From Microbacteriaceae bacterium VKM Ac-2855 (GTDB lineage: Bacteria > Actinomycetota > Actinomycetes > Actinomycetales > Microbacteriaceae): DNA of 64,000 nucleotides. The stretch spans positions 306,574 to 370,573 of the forward strand of contig JABMLG010000001.1 of NCBI GenBank assembly GCA_013204985.1, read 5' to 3'. This document shows positions 9,495 to 21,270 of the stretch, piece after piece. A program made the translations under genes and the position numbers. Each line of letters begins with the position of its first letter. Positions within the stretch are counted from its first letter, which is position 1. The notes under the pieces were generated by a model. The model was not told the DNA's origin. It did not search any database and worked only from the letters and a program-made list of their open reading frames with translations.

Positions 9495-9905
9495 ATGAAC
9501 ATCAGCATCCACTCCAGCTTCCTTCCGCAGAACGATCCGGATGCGGCGGTCGCGTTCTACCGCGACGCGCTCGGTTTCGAGGTCCGCATGGACGTGGGCT
9601 ACGAAGGCCTGCGGTGGATCACCGTCGGGCCCGTCGATCAGCCCGAGACCTCGATCGTGCTCTACCCGCCGACCGCCACCCCGGGGATCACGGAGGACGA
9701 GCAGCGTGTCATCACCGAGATGATGGCGAAGGGCACCTACGGCAGCCTGCTGCTGGCGACTCCGGATCTCGACGCGACCTTCGAGAAGGTGCAGGCCAGC
9801 GGCGCCGAGGTCGTTCAGGAGCCCACCGACCAACCGTACGGTGTCCGCGACAGCGCCTTCCGCGACCCCGCCGGCAACATGATCCGGATCCAGGAGAAGC
9901 GCTGA
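9495..9905 (+). CDS. VOC-superfamily (glyoxalase/bleomycin-resistance type) protein
   Basis: 136-aa vicinal-oxygen-chelate protein with two beta-alpha-beta-beta-beta modules: FLPQNDPDAAVAFYRDALGF at the start and LLLATPDLDATFEKVQASGAE in the second half, ending with RDSAFRDPAGNMIRIQEK. The terminal D-P-x-GN-x-IRIQE carries a conserved metal-ligand glutamate. Members are metal-dependent isomerases, dioxygenases or drug-sequestering proteins; which applies here is not visible. The ATG at 9495 follows a leaderless box, and the UvrA-like gene starts 3 bases after the stop, so both probably share a transcript. Confidence 0.88.
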   Translation: MNISIHSSFLPQNDPDAAVAFYRDALGFEVRMDVGYEGLRWITVGPVDQPETSIVLYPPTATPGITEDEQRVITEMMAKGTYGSLLLATPDLDATFEKVQASGAEVVQEPTDQPYGVRDSAFRDPAGNMIRIQEKR

Positions 9906-9907
9906 CC

Positions 9908-12253
9908 GTGGCGGTGAGCCCCTTCGGCGTCATCCGCGTGCAGGGTGCTCGCGAGAACAACCTGAAGAACATCAGCGTCGAGATCCCCAAACGGCAGCTG
10001 ACGGTCTTCACGGGCGTGTCGGGCTCGGGTAAGAGTTCCCTGGTTTTCGGCACGATCGCTGCGGAATCGCAGCGAATGATCAACGAGACCTACAGCGCGT
10101 TCGTCCAGGGCTTCATGCCGACCCTCGGGCGCCCTGACGTCGACGTGCTCGAAGGGCTGACCACCGCGATCATCGTCGACCAGGAGCGGATGGGCGCGAA
10201 CGTGCGCTCGACCGTCGGCACGGCCACGGACGCGAATGCGATGCTGCGCCTGCTTTTCAGCCGGTTGGGTTCACCGCATCTGGGCTCGCCGCAGGCGTAC
10301 TCGTTCAATGTGGCGTCCGCGAAGGGAGCCGGAGCGGTGACGGTCGACAGGGCGAACGCCCGCGCGGTGCGTCGCAGCTTCGAGATCGTCGGCGGCATGT
10401 GTCCGCGCTGCGAGGGGATGGGATCGGTCAACGACATCGATTTCACCGCCCTCTACGACGACAGCAGGTCGCTCGATGACGGCGCGCTGACGATCCCGGG
10501 ATACAGCATTGACGGCTGGTACGGCCGGATCTTCCGCGGCTGCGGGTTCTTCGCGACCGACAAGCCGATCCGCGACTTCACGGCCAAGGAATCGCGTGCC
10601 CTGCTCTACATGGAGCCGACGAAGATCATCGTCGACGGCATCAACCTCACCTACTCGGGCCTCATTCCGCAGATCCAGAAGTCGTTCTTGTCGAAGGACG
10701 TCGACACGCTGCAGCCGCACATCCGCGCCTTCGTCGAGCGTGCCGTTACGTTCACGTCGTGCCCCGAATGCCACGGGACGCGCTTGAACGAAGGCGCGCG
10801 GTCGTCGAAAGTCGCCGGAATCAGCATCGCCGAAGCGTGTGCCATGCAGATCACCGATCTCGCGGAGTGGGTGAACCGGCTCGTCGAGCCGTCGGTCGCT
10901 CCGCTGATCGCCGCCGTGCAGCACATCCTCGAGGCGTTCGTGGGGATCGGCCTCGGCTATCTCTCGCTCGATCGGTCGGCGGGAACGCTCTCGGGCGGCG
11001 AAGCGCAGCGCACCAAGCTCATCCGGCATCTCGGATCGTCGCTCACCGATGTCACCTACGTGTTCGACGAGCCGACCATCGGCTTGCATCCACACGACAT
11101 CCAGCGGATGAACGTGCTGCTGCTGCGCTTGCGGGACAAGGGGAACACGGTTCTCGTGGTCGAGCACAAGCCCGAGATGATCGCGATCGCGGATCACGTC
11201 GTGGACCTCGGGCCCGGCGCAGGCTCGAGCGGCGGCGAGGTCTGCTTCGAGGGCACGCTGGACGATCTGCGGAGGAGCGGAACCCTCACGGGCAAGCACC
11301 TCGACGACCGCGCCTCGCTGAAGGAGGCGGTACGCACACCGACTGGTTCGCTCGAGATCCGCGGCGCCGACACCCACAACCTTCGCGATGTCGACGTCGA
11401 TGTACCTCTGGGGGTTCTCGTCGTGCTCACGGGTGTGGCCGGGTCGGGAAAGAGTTCGCTCGTGCACGGCTCGATCCCTGCCGGGCACGGGGTGATCTCG
11501 GTCGACCAGGGTGCGATCCGCGGTTCACGGCGCTCCAATCCGGCGACCTACACGGGGCTGCTCGAACCGATCCGCAAGGCGTTCGCCAAGGCGAACGGGG
11601 TCAAGCCGGCGCTGTTCAGCTCGAACTCCGAGGGCGCGTGTCCGAACTGCAACGGGGCCGGTGTGATATTCATGGATCTCGGCATGATGGCCGGAGTATC
11701 GACGACCTGCGAGGTCTGCGAGGGCCGACGATTCGACGCCTCGGTGCTCGATTTCACCCTCGGTGGTCGCGACATCAGCGAGGTGCTGGCGATGCCTGTC
11801 ACGGAGGCCGCGGAATTCTTCGGTTCGGGGGAGGCGCGCATCCCGGCAGCGGCGGCCATTCTGAGTCGGCTGGTGGACGTGGGGCTCGGCTACCTCAGCC
11901 TGGGTCAACCGTTGACGACCCTTTCGGGCGGTGAGCGGCAGCGCCTGAAGCTGGCCACCCACCTCGCGGAGAAGGGCGGCGTCTACGTTCTCGACGAACC
12001 GACGACGGGCCTGCACCTCGCGGATGTCGAGCAGCTGCTCGGTCTTCTCGATCGTCTCGTCGACTCCGGCGCATCGGTGATCGTGATCGAACAGCACCAA
12101 GCGGTGATGGCTCATGCCGACTGGATCATCGATCTCGGACCGGGCGCGGGCCACGAGGGCGGTCGGGTGGTGTTCGAGGGGACGCCTGCGCAGTTGGTCG
12201 CCGCGCGTTCGACGCTGACGGGTCAGCACCTGGCCGCGTACGTGGGGGAGTAG
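9908..12253 (+). CDS. UvrA-like tandem ABC ATPase (DrrC/UvrA2 type)
   Basis: 781-aa twin-ATPase related to excinuclease subunit A. It has two Walker A motifs (GVSGSGKSS and GVAGSGKSS), two signatures (LSGGEAQR and LSGGERQR), two Walker B motifs ending in DEPT, and zinc-ribbon CxxC pairs (CPRC, CPEC, CPNC, CEVC). At 781 aa it is about 170 residues shorter than housekeeping UvrA (about 940-990), close to DrrC, the daunorubicin-resistance paralogue. The missing length is expected from the UvrB-binding region, which I infer rather than aligned. It may release DNA-bound drugs. The GTG start at 9908 is 3 bases after the VOC stop. Confidence 0.88.
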   Translation: MAVSPFGVIRVQGARENNLKNISVEIPKRQLTVFTGVSGSGKSSLVFGTIAAESQRMINETYSAFVQGFMPTLGRPDVDVLEGLTTAIIVDQERMGANVRSTVGTATDANAMLRLLFSRLGSPHLGSPQAYSFNVASAKGAGAVTVDRANARAVRRSFEIVGGMCPRCEGMGSVNDIDFTALYDDSRSLDDGALTIPGYSIDGWYGRIFRGCGFFATDKPIRDFTAKESRALLYMEPTKIIVDGINLTYSGLIPQIQKSFLSKDVDTLQPHIRAFVERAVTFTSCPECHGTRLNEGARSSKVAGISIAEACAMQITDLAEWVNRLVEPSVAPLIAAVQHILEAFVGIGLGYLSLDRSAGTLSGGEAQRTKLIRHLGSSLTDVTYVFDEPTIGLHPHDIQRMNVLLLRLRDKGNTVLVVEHKPEMIAIADHVVDLGPGAGSSGGEVCFEGTLDDLRRSGTLTGKHLDDRASLKEAVRTPTGSLEIRGADTHNLRDVDVDVPLGVLVVLTGVAGSGKSSLVHGSIPAGHGVISVDQGAIRGSRRSNPATYTGLLEPIRKAFAKANGVKPALFSSNSEGACPNCNGAGVIFMDLGMMAGVSTTCEVCEGRRFDASVLDFTLGGRDISEVLAMPVTEAAEFFGSGEARIPAAAAILSRLVDVGLGYLSLGQPLTTLSGGERQRLKLATHLAEKGGVYVLDEPTTGLHLADVEQLLGLLDRLVDSGASVIVIEQHQAVMAHADWIIDLGPGAGHEGGRVVFEGTPAQLVAARSTLTGQHLAAYVGE

Positions 12254-13923: not shown

Positions 13924-14397
13924 CCCTGCCGTGTGCAGCGAGTGTTCGACCAGCAATTATGTCAAGTAATGATGCGACCAACCGACCTCGTTGACGAGCT
14001 TGAGGGACCCCCGCCGCTCGGCGTGATTCGATGCCATTTCGCAGCCGCAGTGGCGTCCGTGCAGCGACGCGACAGTTTTGTGCTTCGAGGCAGCAGGAAA
14101 TGTCGCCGCGCCTTACCCGCCGTCACGGGCGCGACGGATGCGCACTCAGCCCGCTCCAAACACATCCGATAATGCACATTATGTCAAGTGAACCCTGGCA
14201 CGTTCGCATCTGATGCGAATTGGCCGGTTCCCTCGACCTGCGCGTTAGGACGCGGCGGTCGGGCGTGGAGATGTTGCGCAGACGTGCCGAGTGGGTGGCG
14301 CGGCGTGCGCGTGTCGGGTGGTCAGAACGGCCGTTGACCAGGATTTCTCCGAAGTCGTTGACATCGGTTCGCGGTTAATGCGAATCTTTCGCACATC
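13924..14397. other. Gene-free left flank of the integrase element
   Basis: No supported gene in 474 bases. It holds a 12-bp direct repeat (ATTATGTCAAGT at 13956-13967 and 14178-14189), a small palindrome ATAATGCACATTAT at 14169-14182, the left 86-bp element repeat (14189-14274) and, just before the first integrase, TGCGAA/TTCGCA half-sites at about 14379-14405 that echo the palindrome in the repeat. No N-terminal part of a PfkB kinase, which would be expected if the block had simply inserted into the kinase gene seen on its right, was found here. Confidence 0.6.
14189..14274 (+). repeat. Left 86-bp direct repeat of the element
   Basis: Matches 20787-20872 at 71 of 86 positions with no gap. 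It contains the perfect palindrome TTCGCATCTGATGCGAA at 14203-14219 and a CTCGACC/GGTCGGG stem further on. The differences cluster in the loop and at the centre of the palindrome, so the foldable parts are conserved. Probably a recombinase or HTH-protein binding end. Confidence 0.7.
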
Positions 14398-15528
14398 ATG
14401 CGAAGGGTCGAGGAGGTCGTTCCGGGCGCGGTTCCCGTTCATCTTCAGGGCGCTGTCGCGGTCTTGAACGCTGAGGAGACGGTGTGGGAGGCGATGCTCG
14501 GCGGGTGGCGGGCGCAGCAGCTCGCTCGGAACCTGGCGCCATCGACGGTTGATCGTCGGCGTGAGTTGGTGAGCCGGTTCCGGCGCTTCGTTGATGCCTA
14601 CCCATGGTCGTGGACGGTTGGCGGGGTGGATGAGTTCTTTCTCGAGCTGCGCGCTGTCGGCGGCCTGTCTCAGTCGACGATCCTGGGCTATCAGGGCGCG
14701 CTGCGGATGTTCCTCGAGTACGTCTGCGATCCCCGTTACGGCTGGGTGGAGCAGTGCTGGCAACGCTTCGGCGATCACCCGGCTCAGGTGTTCCACGAAT
14801 GGAACACCGCCCGTCACGCGCAGAACGGGATCGCGCAGCCGGGCAAACGTCCCTACACCCGGGATGAGCTGCAGGACCTGTTCGATTGCGCCGATGAGCG
14901 CGTGCTCCGAATACGGAAGCAGGGCAGCAAGGGCTGGGTCGCCGCGTTTCGGACGGCGACGATGATGAAGGCCGCCTACGCCTGGGGTCTGCGCCGTAAC
15001 GAGGTCCGCTCGCTGGACCTCGTCGACTGCGCTTCGAATCCGGCCGCACGGCAGTTCGGCGATTTCGGGATCATCTACGTCCGTTTCGGGAAAGCGATGC
15101 GCGGGTCTCCGCCGAAGCGACGCAGCGTGTTGAGCCTGCCGGAGATGGATTGGTCGACGGAGATCATGCGGCAGTGGATTGAGGAGGTCCGTCCGCTGAT
15201 TGCCCGCCCGAAGGCGAGCTGTCTTTGGCCGTCGGAGCGCGGTGGCATGATCACCGCTGACGCGGTCAGCCGAGCGTTCAATGAGGTCAAGCGCGAAGCC
15301 GGCCTGGATGATGAGCTCGACTTCCACTCGCTGCGACGCTCCTACGTCACGCACCTGCTCGAGGACGGTTACGACGCGTTCTTCATCCAGCAGCAAGTCG
15401 GCCACGAGCACGCGTCCACGACGTCGATCTACACCGGCGTCTCTCCCGACTACCGCGCCCGCGTCGTCGGCGACGCGATCGCTCGCATGGCTGCGGCTAT
15501 TACCTCCACCACCACAGCGAAGGACTGA
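14398..15528 (+). CDS. Tyrosine recombinase/integrase, triad 1 gene A
   Basis: 376-aa site-specific recombinase. The N-terminal SAM-like DNA-binding domain covers about residues 25-140 (RNLAPSTVDRRRELVSRF, then STILGYQGALRMF). The catalytic domain has R199 in GLRRNE, a lysine at 232 or 240 in the beta-hairpin, H310 and R313 in FHSLRRSY, H336 in VGHEHAST and the nucleophile Y345 in SIYTGV, so all catalytic residues are present. The triad 2 homologue at 17782 shares the same motifs but is clearly diverged. The start at 14398 follows a cluster of TTCGCA-type half-sites that could be operators. Gene B starts 1 base after the stop. Confidence 0.9.
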   Translation: MRRVEEVVPGAVPVHLQGAVAVLNAEETVWEAMLGGWRAQQLARNLAPSTVDRRRELVSRFRRFVDAYPWSWTVGGVDEFFLELRAVGGLSQSTILGYQGALRMFLEYVCDPRYGWVEQCWQRFGDHPAQVFHEWNTARHAQNGIAQPGKRPYTRDELQDLFDCADERVLRIRKQGSKGWVAAFRTATMMKAAYAWGLRRNEVRSLDLVDCASNPAARQFGDFGIIYVRFGKAMRGSPPKRRSVLSLPEMDWSTEIMRQWIEEVRPLIARPKASCLWPSERGGMITADAVSRAFNEVKREAGLDDELDFHSLRRSYVTHLLEDGYDAFFIQQQVGHEHASTTSIYTGVSPDYRARVVGDAIARMAAAITSTTTAKD

Positions 15529-15529
15529 G

Positions 15530-15862
15530 ATGCGACGACGAATCGAATACGGCTGGCGACTGCGTGAACTGATGGCTGCCCGAGGGATGAACACGATCTC
15601 CGACCTGCTCCCCCACCTCGGGGACCGCGGCATCGAGCTCTCCGCGTCACAGATCTATCGCCTCGTCGGCTCCAAACCGGAACGGATGAACCTCACGCTG
15701 CTGGGCGCGCTGCTGGACACCCTCGACTGCAGCTTCGAGGACCTCTGCCCCACCACCGTCGAGGCCGAAAGCTCACGAACTCCGAAGAAGGCCGTCGGAG
15801 ACGGGACGGCCCCGGACGGCGTGGTGCGGCCGGCGCGAGCTCGGATCCGTCGGCCGGAATGA
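15530..15862 (+). CDS. Cro/C1-type HTH protein, triad 1 gene B
   Basis: 110-aa protein with one helix-turn-helix in the first 75 residues (LRELMAARGM, then LSASQIYRLVG as recognition helix, then LTLLGALLDTLDC). The remaining third is charged and low-complexity, ending PARARIRRPE. It resembles small XRE regulators that accompany integrases and could act as a transcriptional switch or as a directionality factor. It starts 1 base after the integrase stop and its own stop overlaps the ATG of gene C (ATGA at 15859). Confidence 0.8.
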   Translation: MRRRIEYGWRLRELMAARGMNTISDLLPHLGDRGIELSASQIYRLVGSKPERMNLTLLGALLDTLDCSFEDLCPTTVEAESSRTPKKAVGDGTAPDGVVRPARARIRRPE

Positions 15863-17316
15863 CCGGCCCGCGAACCCCGGGCGGACGCTACTGCGTCCGC
15901 TGCGCAGCGACCGGGGTGAAATTCGCGACGACCTGGCCGGAAGGGAGCATCTGCCGACGCTGCTACCAGCAGGCCACCCGCCGACACGGCACCTGCCCGC
16001 TCTGCCTCACCCCACGACTGCTGCCCGGGCGCATCGGCGACACCGACGTCTGCACCGACTGCGCCGGCATCCCGAAAGACTTCCACTGCAGCCGATGCGG
16101 CCGCGAAGACGAACCCGCCCGAGTGGGGCTCTGCGCCCACTGCGCCCTGACCGATGACCTCACCGCGCTCCTGGACGACGGCACCGGACACATCGCTCCA
16201 GCCCTGCTCCCCATCCACACGGCACTCACCGGGCAGAGCCATGCCCGCAGCGCAACGATCTGGCTGATCACTAACCCGGACGCCGCCGCGCTGCTGCGGG
16301 ATCTCGCGCAAGGGGTCCGGCCGCTGGAGCACGCCACCTTCACCAGCCACCCGCACCCGCGGAGGGTCGCGTTCCTGCATGAGCTGTTCATCGAGCACCA
16401 ACTGTTGGACCCGATGAACCTCGACATTGAACGCTTCCAGACCTGGCTCATCGCCAAGCTCTCCCCCGCAGCTGAATCGGACGCGAGAATCGTCACGCAA
16501 TATGCCCGCTGGGTCCACCTCAACCGGATGCGCCACCTCGCCGAGACCGGCAGCCTGAGCAAGGGAACGATCCTCTCCGCGAAGCAGTCGACCACCGTTG
16601 CTCTCGACTTCCTCGCTTTCCTCGCCAGCCGCGCCACGACCCTGGACCGATGCGAGCAAGGCGACATCGACCAGTGGCTCGCGGACGGCCCCACCACCCG
16701 CAGCCTGGCCCGCGGATTCGTCCGCTGGGCGATCGAGCACCACCACGCACCCCAGCTCGAGTTCCCCTACCGCGTCGCGAAAACGGAACCCGTCCTGAGC
16801 CAGAAGCAGCGCCTCGCACTCATCCGTCTGGTCGTCGATGAAGACACCGACCTGGCCGACTCCGATCGCGCCGCCGCAGTGCTCTTCCTCGTCTTCGGAC
16901 AACCACTCACCCGAATCTCACGCATGACGCCCGACCAGATCAAAAGCCAAGACCAGACGATCATCCTGCGACTGACCGACGATGAGCTCCTCGTCCCACC
17001 ACCCTTCGACGACATCCTGATCCGACACCTGGAACGGCTCCCCCACCAGACAACGGCGGCCCACCGCGGTGACGCGCGCTGGCTCTTCCCCGGCGCCCGA
17101 CCCGGGCAACCCATCAACCAGAACACCCTCATGACGCGCATCCGCGACGCGGGCATCGATCTCCGCGCCGCCCACAACGCGACCATGCGGGCCCTCGTCC
17201 TCGACATCCCCGCCGCGATCGTCGCCGACTCGCTCGGATACAGCTACCAGATCGCCGACAAGCACCGCCGCAACTCTGGCGCCACCTTCATCGATTACGT
17301 CAACCGCCGCGGCTGA
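15859..17316 (+). CDS. Zinc-ribbon protein with degenerate recombinase-like C-terminus, triad 1 gene C
   Basis: 485-aa protein not assigned to a named family. The first ~90 residues hold six cysteine pairs of CxxC type (CVRC, CRRC, CPLC, CTDC, CSRC, CAHC), enough for three zinc ribbons. The middle reads as an all-alpha region like an integrase SAM domain, and the last ~100 residues follow the tyrosine-recombinase order: WLFPG, then IRDAGIDLRAAHNATMRALV where the H-x-x-R box would be, then DSLGYSYQIA where LGH is usual, then a terminal Y in FIDYVNRRG. The catalytic arginine/histidine boxes are replaced, so it is probably a DNA-binding partner rather than an active recombinase. Confidence 0.65.
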   Translation: MTGPRTPGGRYCVRCAATGVKFATTWPEGSICRRCYQQATRRHGTCPLCLTPRLLPGRIGDTDVCTDCAGIPKDFHCSRCGREDEPARVGLCAHCALTDDLTALLDDGTGHIAPALLPIHTALTGQSHARSATIWLITNPDAAALLRDLAQGVRPLEHATFTSHPHPRRVAFLHELFIEHQLLDPMNLDIERFQTWLIAKLSPAAESDARIVTQYARWVHLNRMRHLAETGSLSKGTILSAKQSTTVALDFLAFLASRATTLDRCEQGDIDQWLADGPTTRSLARGFVRWAIEHHHAPQLEFPYRVAKTEPVLSQKQRLALIRLVVDEDTDLADSDRAAAVLFLVFGQPLTRISRMTPDQIKSQDQTIILRLTDDELLVPPPFDDILIRHLERLPHQTTAAHRGDARWLFPGARPGQPINQNTLMTRIRDAGIDLRAAHNATMRALVLDIPAAIVADSLGYSYQIADKHRRNSGATFIDYVNRRG

Positions 17317-17781
17317 ACGCGATGAGAGCGTTCCCCGCCTACCGGGGCGCGGCCGCCGAGCGTGTCGGCCATTTCAGCGGGGAACGCAGATCGACGATAT
17401 CAAGACGGGGCCACAAACTCGGTGAAGCACGAGTGTCGCCAACCCTCCAACAACATCAGCTCGGTCCAGCTCAAGCCGACATCGGAAGCCGAATACGCCG
17501 GTCACGAATACGCAGGTCCGTCGCTAGTTGTGATCCAAATGCAGAAGCTGCCGGATTGGGCTCCCCTGATACGCGCGGTGTCGTCAGGTGCTGCTGAGCG
17601 TCGAACGGGCTGCTGACCTGGTTTTTGTGTGGAATGGAGTGTTCTGCGTGGACGCTCCTGGTTGTCAGGCAGGCTCGGGCGTTGACTGACTGATTCTGCC
17701 GCGTGTTTCTGCGGATTTCGGTATTGCCGATTGCAGTTTTTGCATTCGAAGCGCATTCTTTGCAGGCGGCGAGGAGGCCTG
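17317..17781. other. Spacer between the two triads
   Basis: 465 bases with no supported gene. It starts with an inverted repeat, GCGTTCCCCGC at 17328-17338 and GCGGGGAACGC at 17377-17387, which could form a long hairpin just after gene C of triad 1 and serve as terminator. Base composition in the rest is lower in GC than the surrounding genes. Short direct echoes of TGCATTC/GCGCATTC lie at about 17740-17756, in the same relative place as the TTCGCA half-sites of triad 1. No copy of the 86-bp end repeat was seen here. Confidence 0.55.
17328..17387 (+). terminator. Hairpin after triad 1
   Basis: Eleven-base arms (GCGTTCCCCGC and GCGGGGAACGC) separated by 38 bases, beginning 12 bases after the gene C stop. 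There is no T-run, so it may be a structural or recombination feature instead of a classical intrinsic terminator. Confidence 0.4.
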
Positions 17782-18897
17782 ATGGACAGCGATTTGGCTC
17801 GGGTGACGCATCTGCCAGCGCCTGCCATTGCGCCGGATCCGGATGCGGTGTTTGCGCAGATGCTGGCTGGGTGGAGGCGTCAGCAGCTCTCGCGGAACTT
17901 CCAGCCGGGCACGATCCGCAAGCATGAGCAGGACGTTCTGCGCTTCGCTGATCTGAGCGGGCACTTCCCGTGGGAGTGGAGCGTCGGCGACGTGGACGAG
18001 GTCTTCGCGCATGCGCGGTCGGTGAAGAACCTGGCCCAGTCCACGGTGCGCTCGTATCAGGGGTCGGTGAAGCTGTTCTGCGACTTCGCGTCCGATCCGA
18101 CCTACGACTGGAACGAGCTCTGCGGCCGCAGCTTCGGCTCGTCCGTGTCCCAGGTCGTGACCGAGTTCAATAGGGCCCGTCATGCTCAACGCAACGAGCA
18201 GCAGCCGGCGAAGCGCCCCTTCACGCGGCGGGAGTTGCAGGATTTCTTTGACCTTGCCGATCTCGAGGTCGAGCGGGTGATCAACTCGCGCCGCAAGGGC
18301 GCGGTGACCGCTTACCGGGATGCGGTCGCCTTCAAGACCGCCTACGCCTGGGGCCTGCGCGCGAACGAGACGGCCCATCTGCAGATCGTCGACTTCTCCC
18401 GCAACCCGCACTCTCCACAATTCGGTGACTTCGGCGTTCTGCAGGTGCGCTACGGGAAATCGCAGCCGGGCTCGCCACCGAAGCGGCGCTCCGTGTTGAC
18501 CGTGTTCGAGTGGTCGGCGCAGCTGATCCACGAGTGGATGCGCAGCGGACTCCCCCGGCTGAACCCGAACCCGTCGGACCTCTTCCCGACCGGCTCGGGG
18601 CTCGTGGTTCCGAAGTCGAACCTGCGCCGACGTTTCCGATCGCTCATCGACGAGCTTGGGTTTCCCGTCGGCCTGGACCTGCATTCGTTGCGCCGCTCCT
18701 ACGCGACGCATCTGGCCGAGTTCTACGGCTTCCAGCAGAGCTTCATCCAACGCCAGCTCGGCCACGAGCACGCGTCGACTACGTCCATTTACACCCTCGT
18801 CTCCGACGACTATCAAGTCCGCGAGCTGAACCGCGTGCTGGAGCAGACCCTCGCTGACGCCACCCGACCGTTGAACCCTTGGGAGAAGCCCGCATGA
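17782..18897 (+). CDS. Tyrosine recombinase/integrase, triad 2 gene A
   Basis: 371-aa homologue of the triad 1 integrase, with the same architecture. Catalytic residues are R193 (GLRANE), K226 (YGKSQPGS), H301 and R304 (LHSLRRSY), H328 (LGHEHAST) and Y337 (SIYTLV), all intact. The ATG at 17782 is chosen for the GAGGAGG ribosome site at 17771-17777; an in-frame upstream start lacks one. The stop overlaps the next ATG (18894). Divergence from triad 1 is throughout the protein, so the two triads are old paralogues or arrived separately, not a recent tandem duplication. Confidence 0.9.
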   Translation: MDSDLARVTHLPAPAIAPDPDAVFAQMLAGWRRQQLSRNFQPGTIRKHEQDVLRFADLSGHFPWEWSVGDVDEVFAHARSVKNLAQSTVRSYQGSVKLFCDFASDPTYDWNELCGRSFGSSVSQVVTEFNRARHAQRNEQQPAKRPFTRRELQDFFDLADLEVERVINSRRKGAVTAYRDAVAFKTAYAWGLRANETAHLQIVDFSRNPHSPQFGDFGVLQVRYGKSQPGSPPKRRSVLTVFEWSAQLIHEWMRSGLPRLNPNPSDLFPTGSGLVVPKSNLRRRFRSLIDELGFPVGLDLHSLRRSYATHLAEFYGFQQSFIQRQLGHEHASTTSIYTLVSDDYQVRELNRVLEQTLADATRPLNPWEKPA

Positions 18898-19232
18898 AAC
18901 GGCAGATCGAATACCAGTGGCGAGTGCGCGAACTGATGGCCCGGCACGGGATGCGCAACAGCCGCGACCTCGTCGGCCCGCTGCGTGAGCGCGACATCAC
19001 CCTCTCTGAGTCGCAGATCTATCGTCTCGTCGGCCAGGACCCGGAACGCATCGCGTTCAAAGTCCTCACCGCGCTCTGCGACGTGTTCGGCGTCGAAGCG
19101 AACGAACTCATCACCTACACCGCGGCGAATGCGCGCACGACAGCCCGCGACCGCGCGGTCGGCGAGGACGCTCCCCCGGCACCGTTGAGCTTCCGGCCTG
19201 TCCGAGCGCGGATCCTCGATGATGACGACTGA
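18894..19232 (+). CDS. Cro/C1-type HTH protein, triad 2 gene B
   Basis: 112-aa counterpart of 15530-15862. The HTH core is the same in outline (VRELMARHGM, SESQIYRLVG, FKVLTALCDVFGV), again with a charged low-complexity tail that ends in a run of aspartates. Both copies share the opening motif R-(R/Q)-IEY-x-WR-(L/V)-RELMA, so they belong to one specific subfamily. The start overlaps the integrase stop and the end overlaps gene C by about 14 bases. Confidence 0.8.
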   Translation: MKRQIEYQWRVRELMARHGMRNSRDLVGPLRERDITLSESQIYRLVGQDPERIAFKVLTALCDVFGVEANELITYTAANARTTARDRAVGEDAPPAPLSFRPVRARILDDDD

Positions 19233-20745
19233 GCGGCCACCGAAGGGAAGACCGCGAGCGGCCGGGACCATCGAGTGCGACCGCTGCAAACGACTCGTTG
19301 CCAAGATCCGAGTCCGCTGGACCGACGGTCGCATCTGCGGCATCTGCTTCACGAACGCCGTCCACACTTTCGGCACCTGCCCCAGCTGTGATCAGGCTCG
19401 GATGCTCCCCGGCCGCAACGCCGCGGGCACACCGATCTGCCGCGACTGCGCCGGGATCACCACCGCGCTCACCTGCGACCGCTGCGGCACGGAAGCGGAA
19501 CGATTCCGCGGCGGAGTTTGCGTGCGCTGCGTGCTCCGCGACGACCTGGGTGAGCTGTTGCAGCCCACCACTCCCCCGGATCTGCGCCTCAAACGCTTGA
19601 TCGAGGTTCTCGCCGCAACCGAACGGCCCGAGAGCATCTACACCTGGATGCGCGGCGCCGACGCCCATCACCTTCTCGCTCTGCTCGGCACCCGCGAACT
19701 CGCGCTCACCCACCACGCCTTCGACGCGCTGCCCGCCTCCCGAGCGCTCACGCACCTGCGGGAGATGCTCGTTCATCACCGGATCCTGCCCGAACGCGAC
19801 GGCGAGCTGGCCATATTCGAGCGCTGGATCGAGGACCGCCTGGCGACCTTCGCCCATCGGCCGCAGATCAGGGATCCGCTGGGCCGGTTCGCTCTCTGGC
19901 ATCACCTCGGCCGGCTTCGCCAGCGATCCGGTCCCGGCGTCGATCTGAACTACGCGATCCGCTCCGCGAAACAGGAGATCACCGAGACGGGTCGCTTCCT
20001 GGCATGGCTCGCCGACGAGCACAGCAGCGCCGCAACGGACATCCGTCAAGCGCAGATCGACACCTGGCTGGCCGACGGACCCTCCACACGGCAACGGATC
20101 CGGACCTTCATCGTCTGGATGATCGACGGCCGTCAGATCCGTCACGTCACCGCCCCGCACCGCATGGCGAAGACCTCACCGATGCTGGACCAACCAGCCA
20201 GGATGCAGCACGTCCGCCGCTGCCTCGAGGACACCGGAATGCCGGTCGGCGACCGACTCGCGACGCTGATCCTGCTCCTCTACGCCCATCCCGTCGGCGA
20301 CATCGCCGCGCTACGCACCCAAGCTATCGAGACGAAACCCGACGGTCTCTACCTCCGGCTCGGCACGACACCGGTGCGAATGCCGGCACCGATGGCCACG
20401 ATCGCTTGGGAGCACCTGCAGGCCCGCCCGAACCAGCAGACCACGAACTCCGGAACGTCCTGGCTATTTCCCGGCTCCCTCGCCGGCCATCACATCAGCC
20501 CGGAATCGATGCTGAAACGCCTGCGCGGCTGGGGAGTAGATCTCGGCGCTGCCCGCAACGCAGCCCTGCGCGAACTCGTGATGCAACTCACACCAGCAGC
20601 GCTGGTGAAGCAACTCGGCTACAGCCCCCAGGTCATCTCGAAACACGCAACCGATTCGGCAGCGCCGCAAGCGAACTACCCATCACTCAAGCAAGACCAG
20701 CTGGAAACCGGACCGTCCAACGTCGTGACGGCTCAGCATCCCTAG
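19219..20745 (+). CDS. Zinc-ribbon protein with degenerate recombinase-like C-terminus, triad 2 gene C
   Basis: 508-aa homologue of 15859-17316. Zinc-binding pairs CDRC, CGIC, CPSC, CRDC, CDRC and CVRC fill residues ~15-115. The C-terminus aligns with the other copy: WLFPGSL, then LRGWGVDLGAARNAALREL, KQLGYSPQVISKHA and a final Y. Again the H-x-x-R and LGH boxes of tyrosine recombinases are substituted, so loss of catalysis is shared by both copies and not a chance decay. Two adjacent ATGs (19219, 19222) are possible starts. A cytosolic DNA-binding role beside gene A is inferred. Confidence 0.65.
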   Translation: MMTTERPPKGRPRAAGTIECDRCKRLVAKIRVRWTDGRICGICFTNAVHTFGTCPSCDQARMLPGRNAAGTPICRDCAGITTALTCDRCGTEAERFRGGVCVRCVLRDDLGELLQPTTPPDLRLKRLIEVLAATERPESIYTWMRGADAHHLLALLGTRELALTHHAFDALPASRALTHLREMLVHHRILPERDGELAIFERWIEDRLATFAHRPQIRDPLGRFALWHHLGRLRQRSGPGVDLNYAIRSAKQEITETGRFLAWLADEHSSAATDIRQAQIDTWLADGPSTRQRIRTFIVWMIDGRQIRHVTAPHRMAKTSPMLDQPARMQHVRRCLEDTGMPVGDRLATLILLLYAHPVGDIAALRTQAIETKPDGLYLRLGTTPVRMPAPMATIAWEHLQARPNQQTTNSGTSWLFPGSLAGHHISPESMLKRLRGWGVDLGAARNAALRELVMQLTPAALVKQLGYSPQVISKHATDSAAPQANYPSLKQDQLETGPSNVVTAQHP

Positions 20746-20786
20746 CCGTCATGCATTGGACGCATTGCGATATGTCCCATCCCCGC

Positions 20787-20872
20787 TGAACCCTGGCACG
20801 TTCGCATCCGATGCGAATCGGCCGGTCCTCTCGACCTCCCGTCTAGGACAGGACGGTCGAGCGTGAAAATGT
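20787..20872 (+). repeat. Right 86-bp direct repeat of the element
   Basis: Partner of 14189-14274 (71 of 86 identical). It carries the palindrome TTCGCATCCGATGCGAA at 20801-20817 and a CTCGACC/GGTCGAG stem that is fully complementary here. It begins 41 bases after the gene C stop and ends where reading frame homologous to PfkB kinases begins. Confidence 0.7.
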
Positions 20873-21270
20873 GTGTGGCCTTCGCCGAGGGGCTGCTTTC
20901 CGTCGCCGACGGAGCAGCACTCATCAAGCTCGGCGCCGAAGACGCCGAGCTGATTTTCGATGAACCTCTCGCCCGGGCTACCGCTCGTGTGCTGGCGGCC
21001 GGTGCTGAAGCCGTTCTGGAGACAGCCGGCTCCGCAGGCGCTGCACTCGTCATCTCTCGTGAGCGTGTCTCTGTGCCCATCGCGGCGGCTGACGGACCGG
21101 TCATAGACACGATGGGAGCCGGCGACGCGACCTTCGCCACAGTGGTCGAGGAGTTGGCAGTATCGAACGATAGCAACATCATCGACCCGCACGCCGTCCT
21201 GAATCGGGCGATGAATGTTGCAGCGGCCACCATCCGCGCCGGCGGCGGGCTCCTGCGACTGCCCGCCTGA
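20863..21270 (+). pseudogene. PfkB-family sugar kinase, C-terminal remnant
   Basis: The last ~125 codons of a ribokinase/fructokinase-type gene. Recognisable parts are LIKLGAEDAELIF (the strand-helix before the ATP site), LETAGSAGAALVI, and the PfkB signature DTMGAGDATFATVV with the catalytic aspartate, ending GLLRLPA at a normal stop. The N-terminal ~170 residues with the substrate-binding GG motif are missing, replaced by the element end. It may still be translated from a start created at the junction, but cannot be an active kinase. Confidence 0.75.

Follow-up and report, generated by a model that had tools for sequence, protein, structure and literature searches.

A putative family of three-gene site-specific transposons piled up beside a chromosomal dif site in a Microbacteriaceae genome

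A stretch of 64,000 nucleotides from Microbacteriaceae bacterium VKM Ac-2855 (contig JABMLG010000001.1; hereafter the window) carries two successive gene triads, A-B-C and A-B-C, between 86-bp direct repeats. The initial annotation, made from the sequence alone, took the block for a distinct self-mobile system in which the triads either depend on each other, for example as one per element end, or one had landed beside the other. Is the block one element or several, and what fixes its position?

Gene content and element limits

ORF calls, which place all six genes on the + strand, together with Pfam matches (Phage_integrase in A1 and A2, HTH_26 in B1 and B2) confirmed two diverged triads in A-B-C order (Table 1). 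The tight coupling described within each triad was also found, as A1 and B1 are 1 nt apart and every other intra-triad junction overlaps. The residues R-K-H-R-H-Y are intact in both A proteins, as annotated, and in each row having letters there in an 82-row alignment. The window contains no tRNA gene, which rules out a tRNA as the target.

Table 1 Features of the locus in window coordinates
Feature	Position	Strand	Description
dif site	14162-14189	+	core CCGATAATGCACATTATGTCA at 14166-14186; apparent intact target of E1
Left end of E1 (86-bp repeat, copy 1)	14189-14274	+	palindrome TTCGCAT-CTG-ATGCGAA at 14203-14219
E1 (triad 1)	14190/14191-17526	+	~3.34 kb; second copy identical over 14191-17526, with other flanks
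A1	14398-15528	+	tyrosine recombinase, R-K-H-R-H-Y intact in catalytic columns of alignment; PF00589 2.3e-21
B1	15530-15862	+	Cro/C1-type HTH protein; PF13443 2.6e-13; ATG at 15530 inside ORF ending at 15862
C1	15859-17316	+	six CxxC pairs and possible divergent tyrosine-recombinase-like region
E2 (triad 2), probable	17527-20786	+	left edge from E1 copy comparison; right edge from E3 left-end homology
A2	17782-18897	+	tyrosine recombinase, catalytic residues intact; PF00589 9.7e-14; ORF 17731-18897, ATG at 17782
B2	18894-19232	+	Cro/C1-type HTH protein; PF13443 4.6e-12
C2	19219-20745	+	CxxC pairs and possible recombinase-like region; PF00589 only at E 0.14, below cut-off
E3 left-end stub, probable (86-bp repeat, copy 2)	20787-20872	+	83% identity to E1 left end

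Triad 1 alone is an element, E1. A second copy lies 150 kb away in the same genome (G000 C1:471 kb), without triad 2; the two copies are identical across 3336 bp and their flanks differ. Given this solitary copy, interdependence of the triads is not supported; the other option, that one element landed beside the other, is. At the second copy the E1 left end occurs for the third time in the genome; hence, the 86-bp repeat is not a chance match. Triad 2 probably makes up another element, E2. The right-hand repeat, too, is probably a remnant: the stub of the left end of an E1-type element, the third (E3). Its stub nature had escaped the initial annotation. As C2 has no second copy in this genome, the ends of E2 are drawn from its neighbours. 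After the E3 stub comes a pfkB fragment, whose match covers no more than positions 173-295 of the 302-position profile. Of 74 loci, 21 have a GCATN2-4ATGC palindrome within the 400 nt preceding A, compared with 0 of 74 inside A; a further six loci were excluded because their upstream sequence was too short. E2 has no such palindrome.

The dif site and its relation to the A-B-C family

The site used by bacteria to separate joined chromosomes, dif, lies directly at the left edge of E1. Neither this nor the dif adjacency in relatives had been noticed in the initial annotation. The 28-bp extent given for the site follows the actinobacterial consensus. By sequence, the site matches the chromosomal dif of congeners: the core with spacer GCAC is present in 13 of the 14 congeners fetched, and the remaining one has GTAC. 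Exact CCGATAAT-N4-ATTATG sites occur only twice in the 4.7-Mb genome, each abutting an E1 copy, and CCGATAATNNNNATTATG, abutted by both copies, has exact genome matches only at these two places. The bases between dif and E1 are AGTG in one copy and GTTT in the other, while the right end is constant. Thus, the dif arm belongs to the target and not to the element. GC skew is noisy, and its cumulative curve peaks some 40 kb away from dif. A KOPS-like octamer (GGGNAGGG) shows no strand switch at dif, so the terminus is not marked by this strand-bias test.

For A, the comparison covered the best 80 named relatives: B comes next in 78 and C is linked in 75; the order is conserved, and the genes are not mostly found apart. 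In 27 of these 80 relatives, A is preceded at a distance of 222-399 nt by a dif-like site, forward in 16 and reversed in 11. Chance adjacency was rejected, as the controls (reversed motif; 600 nt downstream of A) gave 0/80 each. In the other 53, the 600 nt preceding A hold no such site, and the relatives without dif include members inside dif-sited groups of the A tree, e.g., L135, L182, and L187. Of the 17 foreign A-carrying loci from the bacterial family, just 4 have a dif-like site, in one case at -860. The target labels cluster on a quick tree of A (13 changes vs 37.5 in shuffles), A2 groups with the dif-sited L190 and L051 and the half-sited L115, and at least one clade is located at a T2SSE-type ATPase gene instead of dif (2 of 5 checked). 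With many relatives lacking dif and at least one clade elsewhere, dif targeting is a trait of clades and not of the whole family. In the 23 genomes searched, by our reading, the site at the element is the unique best dif-like site in 15, tied in 4, and outranked in 4.

Occupation of dif varies. In one congener (G157), the only one with a locus to which the window flanks align by DNA, the genes left of dif are shared with the window and dif is unoccupied; for the window locus, no exact empty site flanked by conserved sequence on both sides was found. In plasmids, Paenarthrobacter YJN-5 carries two identical copies at two different dif-like sites, in the same orientation to the site, and a Herbiconiux plasmid copy also adjoins a dif-like site. 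In a related plasmid, partly matching flanks enclose a dif-like site but no element. C1 has no phage matches. The one 'circular' record, Paenarthrobacter pD (4712 bp), was not counted as proof of a circle: it starts exactly at the element junction and is 2 bp short of the tandem unit, and hence may be an assembler's repeat node.

Alternative explanations and known systems

A single composite element of six genes, with the 86-bp repeats as both ends, would explain the tandem triads and the repeat at each outer edge. The repeats are real, but both are left ends in the same orientation and not the ends of one element. Moreover, triad 1 recurs elsewhere in the genome as an identical unit, and the 14 kb read at that copy (L013) hold no triad 2 genes. 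We rejected this reading because E1 occurs alone, and consider it highly improbable. IMEX, e.g., the CTX phage, occupy dif; they bring a dif-like site with them and rely on the host's XerCD. An element of this type, bringing a dif half-site and integrated by host XerC/XerD, would likewise sit exactly at dif, and the occurrence of dif in either direction among the relatives is in its favor. However, two copies that are otherwise identical have dif arms that differ with the target, the Paenarthrobacter tandem junction contains no dif half, a recombinase with a complete active site is encoded in the element itself, and one clade is found at a non-dif place. Since the A-B-C element has no dif half at its ends, an IMEX was rejected as quite unlikely.

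That many actinobacterial groups have this conserved gene set next to dif could also suggest a domesticated accessory system for chromosome resolution, tied to dif and not mobile. Against this, the A, B, and C genes are missing from the stretch read at 14 of 14 congener dif loci, for which reason a purely chromosomal function was rejected, and which also speaks against the objection that all close relatives might hold the same genes. A C homologue is present in just 3 of 15 genus genomes, this one included, E1 is duplicated identically within one genome, the family occurs on plasmids (245 of 72,556 records), and one copy (L047) is broken, with C in three pieces. We give domestication very little credence. 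Far more probable, and in our view the likely explanation, is that small, mutually independent site-specific transposons have accumulated at the chromosomal dif, where they now lie as dif, E1, E2, and E3 stub. The best reading of the comparisons is that in several clades insertion takes place next to dif, or next to dif-like sites on plasmids, and does not disrupt the site. As dif would be left whole by insertion, copies can pile up.

The A-B-C family looks like a group of transposons of the Tn554/SE/GInt kind, and the earlier proposal of what looks like a distinct self-mobile system is supported. A published description of such a family was not found in the literature searched. Like Tn554 and its actinobacterial relatives, the elements are small and site-specific, with tyrosine recombinase(s), a small extra protein, and no other kind of transposase. 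Insertion appears site-specific and oriented, with target-derived bases at one end: the two E1 and the two YJN-5 copies have the same orientation relative to the site, their left junction bases vary, and the right end is constant. Tn554 encodes TnpA, TnpB, and TnpC, and both recombinases of the actinobacterial relatives are reported to have a potential catalytic motif (PMC3414803). Here, in contrast, one recombinase has a full active site, the HTH gene is in the middle, and a cysteine-rich divergent C comes last, an order that by description sets the family apart from Tn554.

SE (strand-biased circularizing integrative elements, reported in Gammaproteobacteria, median 15.7 kb) and GInt share with the A-B-C family target-derived bases beside one end and several recombinase-related proteins, one of which (Tfp, GinC) has an incomplete motif; in GinC the first Arg is missing. 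SE/GInt circles form with no empty site left behind, and there is a 6-bp footprint. In the sections consulted they have four core genes and two full recombinases, with no mention of zinc modules (PMC10214605, PMC5385486). The three genes with a central HTH do not correspond to the intA-tfp-intB-srap or ginABCD operons and are set apart from them by description. With RIT elements the likeness is in three adjacent overlapping genes, a size of ~3.5 kb, and multiple identical copies; a possible catalytic motif is reported for all three RIT families (PMC3414803), whereas here the middle gene is HTH_26 and C is divergent, unlike the three recombinases RitA-RitB-RitC. The known dif-targeting ISAjo2 group of the IS1202 family is different: these 1.5-kb Acinetobacter elements have a DDE transposase, terminal inverted repeats, and a 5-bp target duplication and no tyrosine recombinase, while E1 encodes a tyrosine recombinase, an HTH protein, and C. 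Judged by its position next to an intact dif, as read from the sequences, E1 would nevertheless be dif-targeting in function, and this without an element-borne dif-like site and with a recombinase of its own.

Protein C and a proposed mechanism

C had been called a zinc ribbon. The CxxC motifs are present, but C1 and C2 have six pairs and therefore probably three zinc modules instead of the single ribbon implied. A possible divergent recombinase in C had been missed. Of 42 C proteins, 12 match Phage_integrase with E values of 0.1 or lower (best 4.9e-5), though C1 itself does not. XerD (1a0p) matches C at E 0.0065, but zinc proteins give many hits with comparable E values. These two results are the better hints that C is a divergent relative of recombinases; hhalign of C vs A was weak (E 0.07 and 0.1), and an HMM search of A against C found nothing significant. 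The first Arg position (n = 42) is R in 29, K in 7, D in 4, H in 1, and N in 1, and both His positions are lost in an alignment by eye; the recombinase-like region is probably non-catalytic. C itself may be catalytic, as Y480 is invariant (42/42) and R439 is present in 40/42.

In the mechanism that we propose, each element would encode A as the catalytic tyrosine recombinase, B as a Cro/C1-type DNA-binding protein, presumably a regulator or end-binding factor, and C. The joined element ends, presumably in a circular intermediate, would be recombined by A with the outer edge of one dif arm, C acting as its putative partner or target recognizer. The junction would lie ~15 bp off the dif center, so that dif stays whole. 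A dif edge would be regenerated on the left of the element, and hence a later element could land there and push the earlier one away. E1 would then have arrived last.

Different clades sit on opposite sides of dif, and one clade grouped with dif-sited ones shows no dif; thus, target choice may be modular and could be swapped. More speculatively, and perhaps somewhat less likely than its opposite, these elements could be actinobacteria-wide 'dif hunters' with a new recombination machinery of three parts, combining a catalytic recombinase, a divergent zinc-binding partner reading the target (possibly dif with Xer bound), and an HTH end-binding protein, and with such swappable targeting. Because dif-type sites are common (40 of the 60 genomes searched contain an exact pattern, and plasmids carry such sites too), a transposon that targets dif and spares it would have a safe harbor in many hosts; it could also account for accumulations of genes at the terminus. 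With clades of three types (forward-dif, reverse-dif, and non-dif), the family provides natural sets for studying target choice by a multi-part tyrosine recombinase, and it could show whether a divergent recombinase with zinc modules serves as a targeting subunit. Public records label C 'recombinase XerD' or 'hypothetical protein', and the family may thus mislead annotation.

The triads and their products

The six genes and the 86-bp repeat described in the initial annotation are present as stated, and its claim of intact R-K-H-R-H-Y residues in both A1 and A2 held in a Pfam search and alignment, which identify both as tyrosine recombinases. In an 82-row alignment, these catalytic residues of A are invariant wherever a row has a letter. 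B1 and B2 each match HTH_26.

C1 and C2 each contain six CxxC pairs, by which C is predicted to bind zinc. Twelve cysteines are invariant among 42 C proteins; in a 14-row alignment of the bacterial family there are only seven, as the first modules are missing from several rows, at least under the chosen starts. The remainder of C weakly resembles a recombinase: Phage_integrase is matched in 12 of the 42 proteins (best 4.9e-5), XerD 1a0p gives an E value of 0.0065 among zinc-protein matches, and many C homologues are labelled 'recombinase XerD' in public annotation. Residues differ at the first Arg position (R 29, K 7, D 4, H 1, N 1; n = 42) and both His positions are gone, as judged by eye from the alignment, yet R439 is kept in 40 of 42 proteins and Y480, about ten residues beyond its expected place, in all 42. 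We therefore describe C as a divergent recombinase that is probably not catalytic, though a catalytic role is conceivable.

Features of the dif-associated elements (dif, elements, repeats, and triad genes on the + strand)
Feature	Position	Remark
dif core	14166-14186	target site
86-bp repeat, left copy	14189-14274	
E1	14191-17526	block identical in both copies
A1	14398-15528	tyrosine recombinase
B1	15530-15862	Cro/C1-type HTH protein
C1	15859-17316	cysteine-rich protein
E2	17527-20786	holds triad 2; putative bounds
A2	17782-18897	tyrosine recombinase
B2	18894-19232	Cro/C1-type HTH protein
C2	19219-20745	cysteine-rich protein
86-bp repeat, right copy	20787-20872	candidate E3 stub
pfkB fragment	20863-21270	first part missing; comes after the 86-bp repeat at 20787

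E1 and its target

Searching the own genome with 14180-17400 returned a second copy 150 kb away. The two copies are identical over 3336 bp and diverge directly outside, and a 14-kb stretch surrounding the second one showed no triad gene other than A1, B1, and C1. Hence, triad 1 forms an element of its own, E1.

CCGATAATGCACATTATGTCA immediately adjoins E1 on the left. The 4.7-Mb genome contains two exact matches of the pattern CCGATAATNNNNATTATG (only exact matches were sought), both at E1 copies. We take the window site to be dif, by which bacteria separate joined chromosomes, from the actinobacterial consensus and from conservation in congeners. The stricter pattern CCGATAATN4ATTATGTCA is present in 40 of 60 genomes searched, including this one. 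In 14 congeners, the main-site spacer is GCAC in 13 and GTAC in one; ten have a single site of this pattern, and four have extras with other spacers. With spacer GCAC and the same core, the window site thus matches the chromosomal dif. Over 400 kb, GC skew shifts noisily from mostly positive to mostly negative near dif, the cumulative maximum lies about 40 kb away, and KOPS-like octamers show no strand switch at dif.

In nine congeners (G150, G151, G152, G155, G158, G159, G116, G160, and G161), a counterpart of the short-chain dehydrogenase gene at 170-1108 lies no more than about 2.9 kb upstream of dif. Another, G157, retains the left-hand genes of the window through the one at 9554-12250, and its dif is unoccupied. 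No A, B, or C homologue was found at the 14 congener dif loci (about 6 kb per side, contig permitting), and a C homologue occurs in 3 of 15 genomes of the genus, this one counted.

The other E1 copy occupies a second dif-like site with spacer TGAT (contig 1, 471398-471418; locus L013). Congener G045 has a TGAT site without the element, so the genus does have secondary sites of this kind. Extra sites with other spacers are seen at congener loci L110, L111, L112, L113, and L114, with no A, B, or C in the stretches read; some are on contigs of 127-150 kb, perhaps plasmids.

The bases that separate the dif core from the shared block are AGTG in one E1 copy and GTTT in the other; the dif spacers of the two copies (GCAC and TGAT, in the same order) are also unlike, while the right end is constant. 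Hence, the dif arm is part of the target. Two plasmids of Paenarthrobacter YJN-5 carry two copies identical over 4720 bp, each by a different dif-like site; for the copy on a Herbiconiux plasmid, a site with 16 of 17 letters lies 238 nt upstream of A. On the related plasmid pACHL01, a dif-like site is present but the element is not; to either side, the outer genes match those of the YJN-5 plasmid (83% and 78%), but the intervening stretch is unaligned, so the locus falls short of a strict empty site. Two tandem copies are present on P. ureafaciens plasmid pA. A circular record of 4712 bp corresponds to one unit less 2 bp; as it begins exactly at the junction, it may be an assembly product. Possible cargo on the Herbiconiux plasmid, about 30 nt after C, is an ArsR/SmtB regulator together with a cation transporter (L198, 9511-10538).

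The right-hand 86 bp are 83% identical to the left end of E1 in equal orientation and are probably a stub left by a third element, E3. With E1 identical to its other copy and E3 only a stub, the arrangement dif-E1-E2-E3 suggests that elements landed repeatedly at the same site, the newest adjoining dif. The pfkB fragment has 70% identity to part of contig C21.

Distribution and dif adjacency in relatives

A C homologue is present in 19 of 150 genomes of the bacterial family (this one counted), and A, B, and C are in order on one strand in 17 of 20 stretches fetched around such homologues. The other three have a C-like match only: L059, where C is at a contig end, L061, and L064, a short match. 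A named-genome search with the A alignment gave at least 574 relatives, of which the best 80 were taken. Among these, A is followed by B in 78 and by C in 75; three of the five without C have less than 600 nt downstream of A, and L153 and L184 have more. All but one are actinobacterial by title, and the A-B-C set outside Actinomycetota, from Nitrospira moscoviensis (L176), is on a long branch of the A tree. C1 matched 245 of 72,556 plasmid records and none of 50,697 phage records.

In the 600 nt upstream of A, a site was counted as dif-like when 14 or more of its 17 letters agreed with dif. Such sites were found in 27 of the best 80 relatives, 16 forward (-246 to -356) and 11 reversed (-222 to -399). 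A reversed-motif control in the same 600 nt gave 0 of 80 scores of 14 or more (maximum 12), and the maximum dif score in the 600 nt downstream of A was also 12; two of the 80 have less than 250 nt available upstream. Among 17 foreign family loci fetched with A, four have a dif-like site (L045, L047, L051, and, at -860, L050) and two a half site (L095 and L115, both of G009); L046 has only 137 nt upstream of A. The half sites of the A2-like L115 and L095 are at -295/-305, and both loci have a full dif-like site about 7.5 kb upstream of A in surroundings that look alike as printed.

On a quick tree of 94 A proteins, with SH-aLRT support only, target labels change 13 times vs. 37.5 in shuffles. 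The tree places A1 with four dif-sited elements; the companions of A2 are two dif-sited elements and one with a half site. Nine elements without dif, mostly from Streptomyces/Streptosporangiaceae, group with forward-dif ones; L135, L182, L147, L163, and, in the reverse group, L187 are also without it, some upstream stretches being short. In the clade of L053, L054, L056, L057, and L058, A-B-C is beside an apparently truncated T2SSE-type (CpaF/TadA-like) ATPase gene rather than dif, the gene being assigned by Pfam in two of the five and by eye in the others. By our own reading of 23 genomes, with loci matched to places by coordinates, the site at the element outranks all other dif-like sites in 15, shares first place in four, and is not the best in four, some of which may be plasmid sites.

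Proposed mechanism and known systems

In the mechanism that we propose, A and C would join the element's ends with the help of B. The joined ends would then recombine at the outer margin of one of the dif arms, and dif itself would be kept whole. B is a possible repressor of A, a possible end-binding protein, or both: at 21 of 74 loci, the 400 nt before A contain palindromes of the form GCAT-N2-4-ATGC, mostly around -250 and around -75 to -25, vs. 0 of 74 inside A.

Functional neighbours are Tn554, RIT, SE, and GInt, none of which, as described in the papers compared, has the A-B-C gene set (PMC10214605, PMC8138268, PMC3414803, PMC5385486, PMC2731543, PMC10132070, PMC11187229). IS1202-family elements target dif too but have a DDE transposase. 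No account of the actinobacterial A-B-C family was found in the literature searched, outside which most subscription journals lie. We regard the family as a variant within a known kind of system, with a striking target. On Pseudarthrobacter defluvii plasmid pB (L223), the A gene of an A-B-C element is apparently split by a Tn554-like set of three recombinases and DUF6262, which inverted recombinase copies adjoin.
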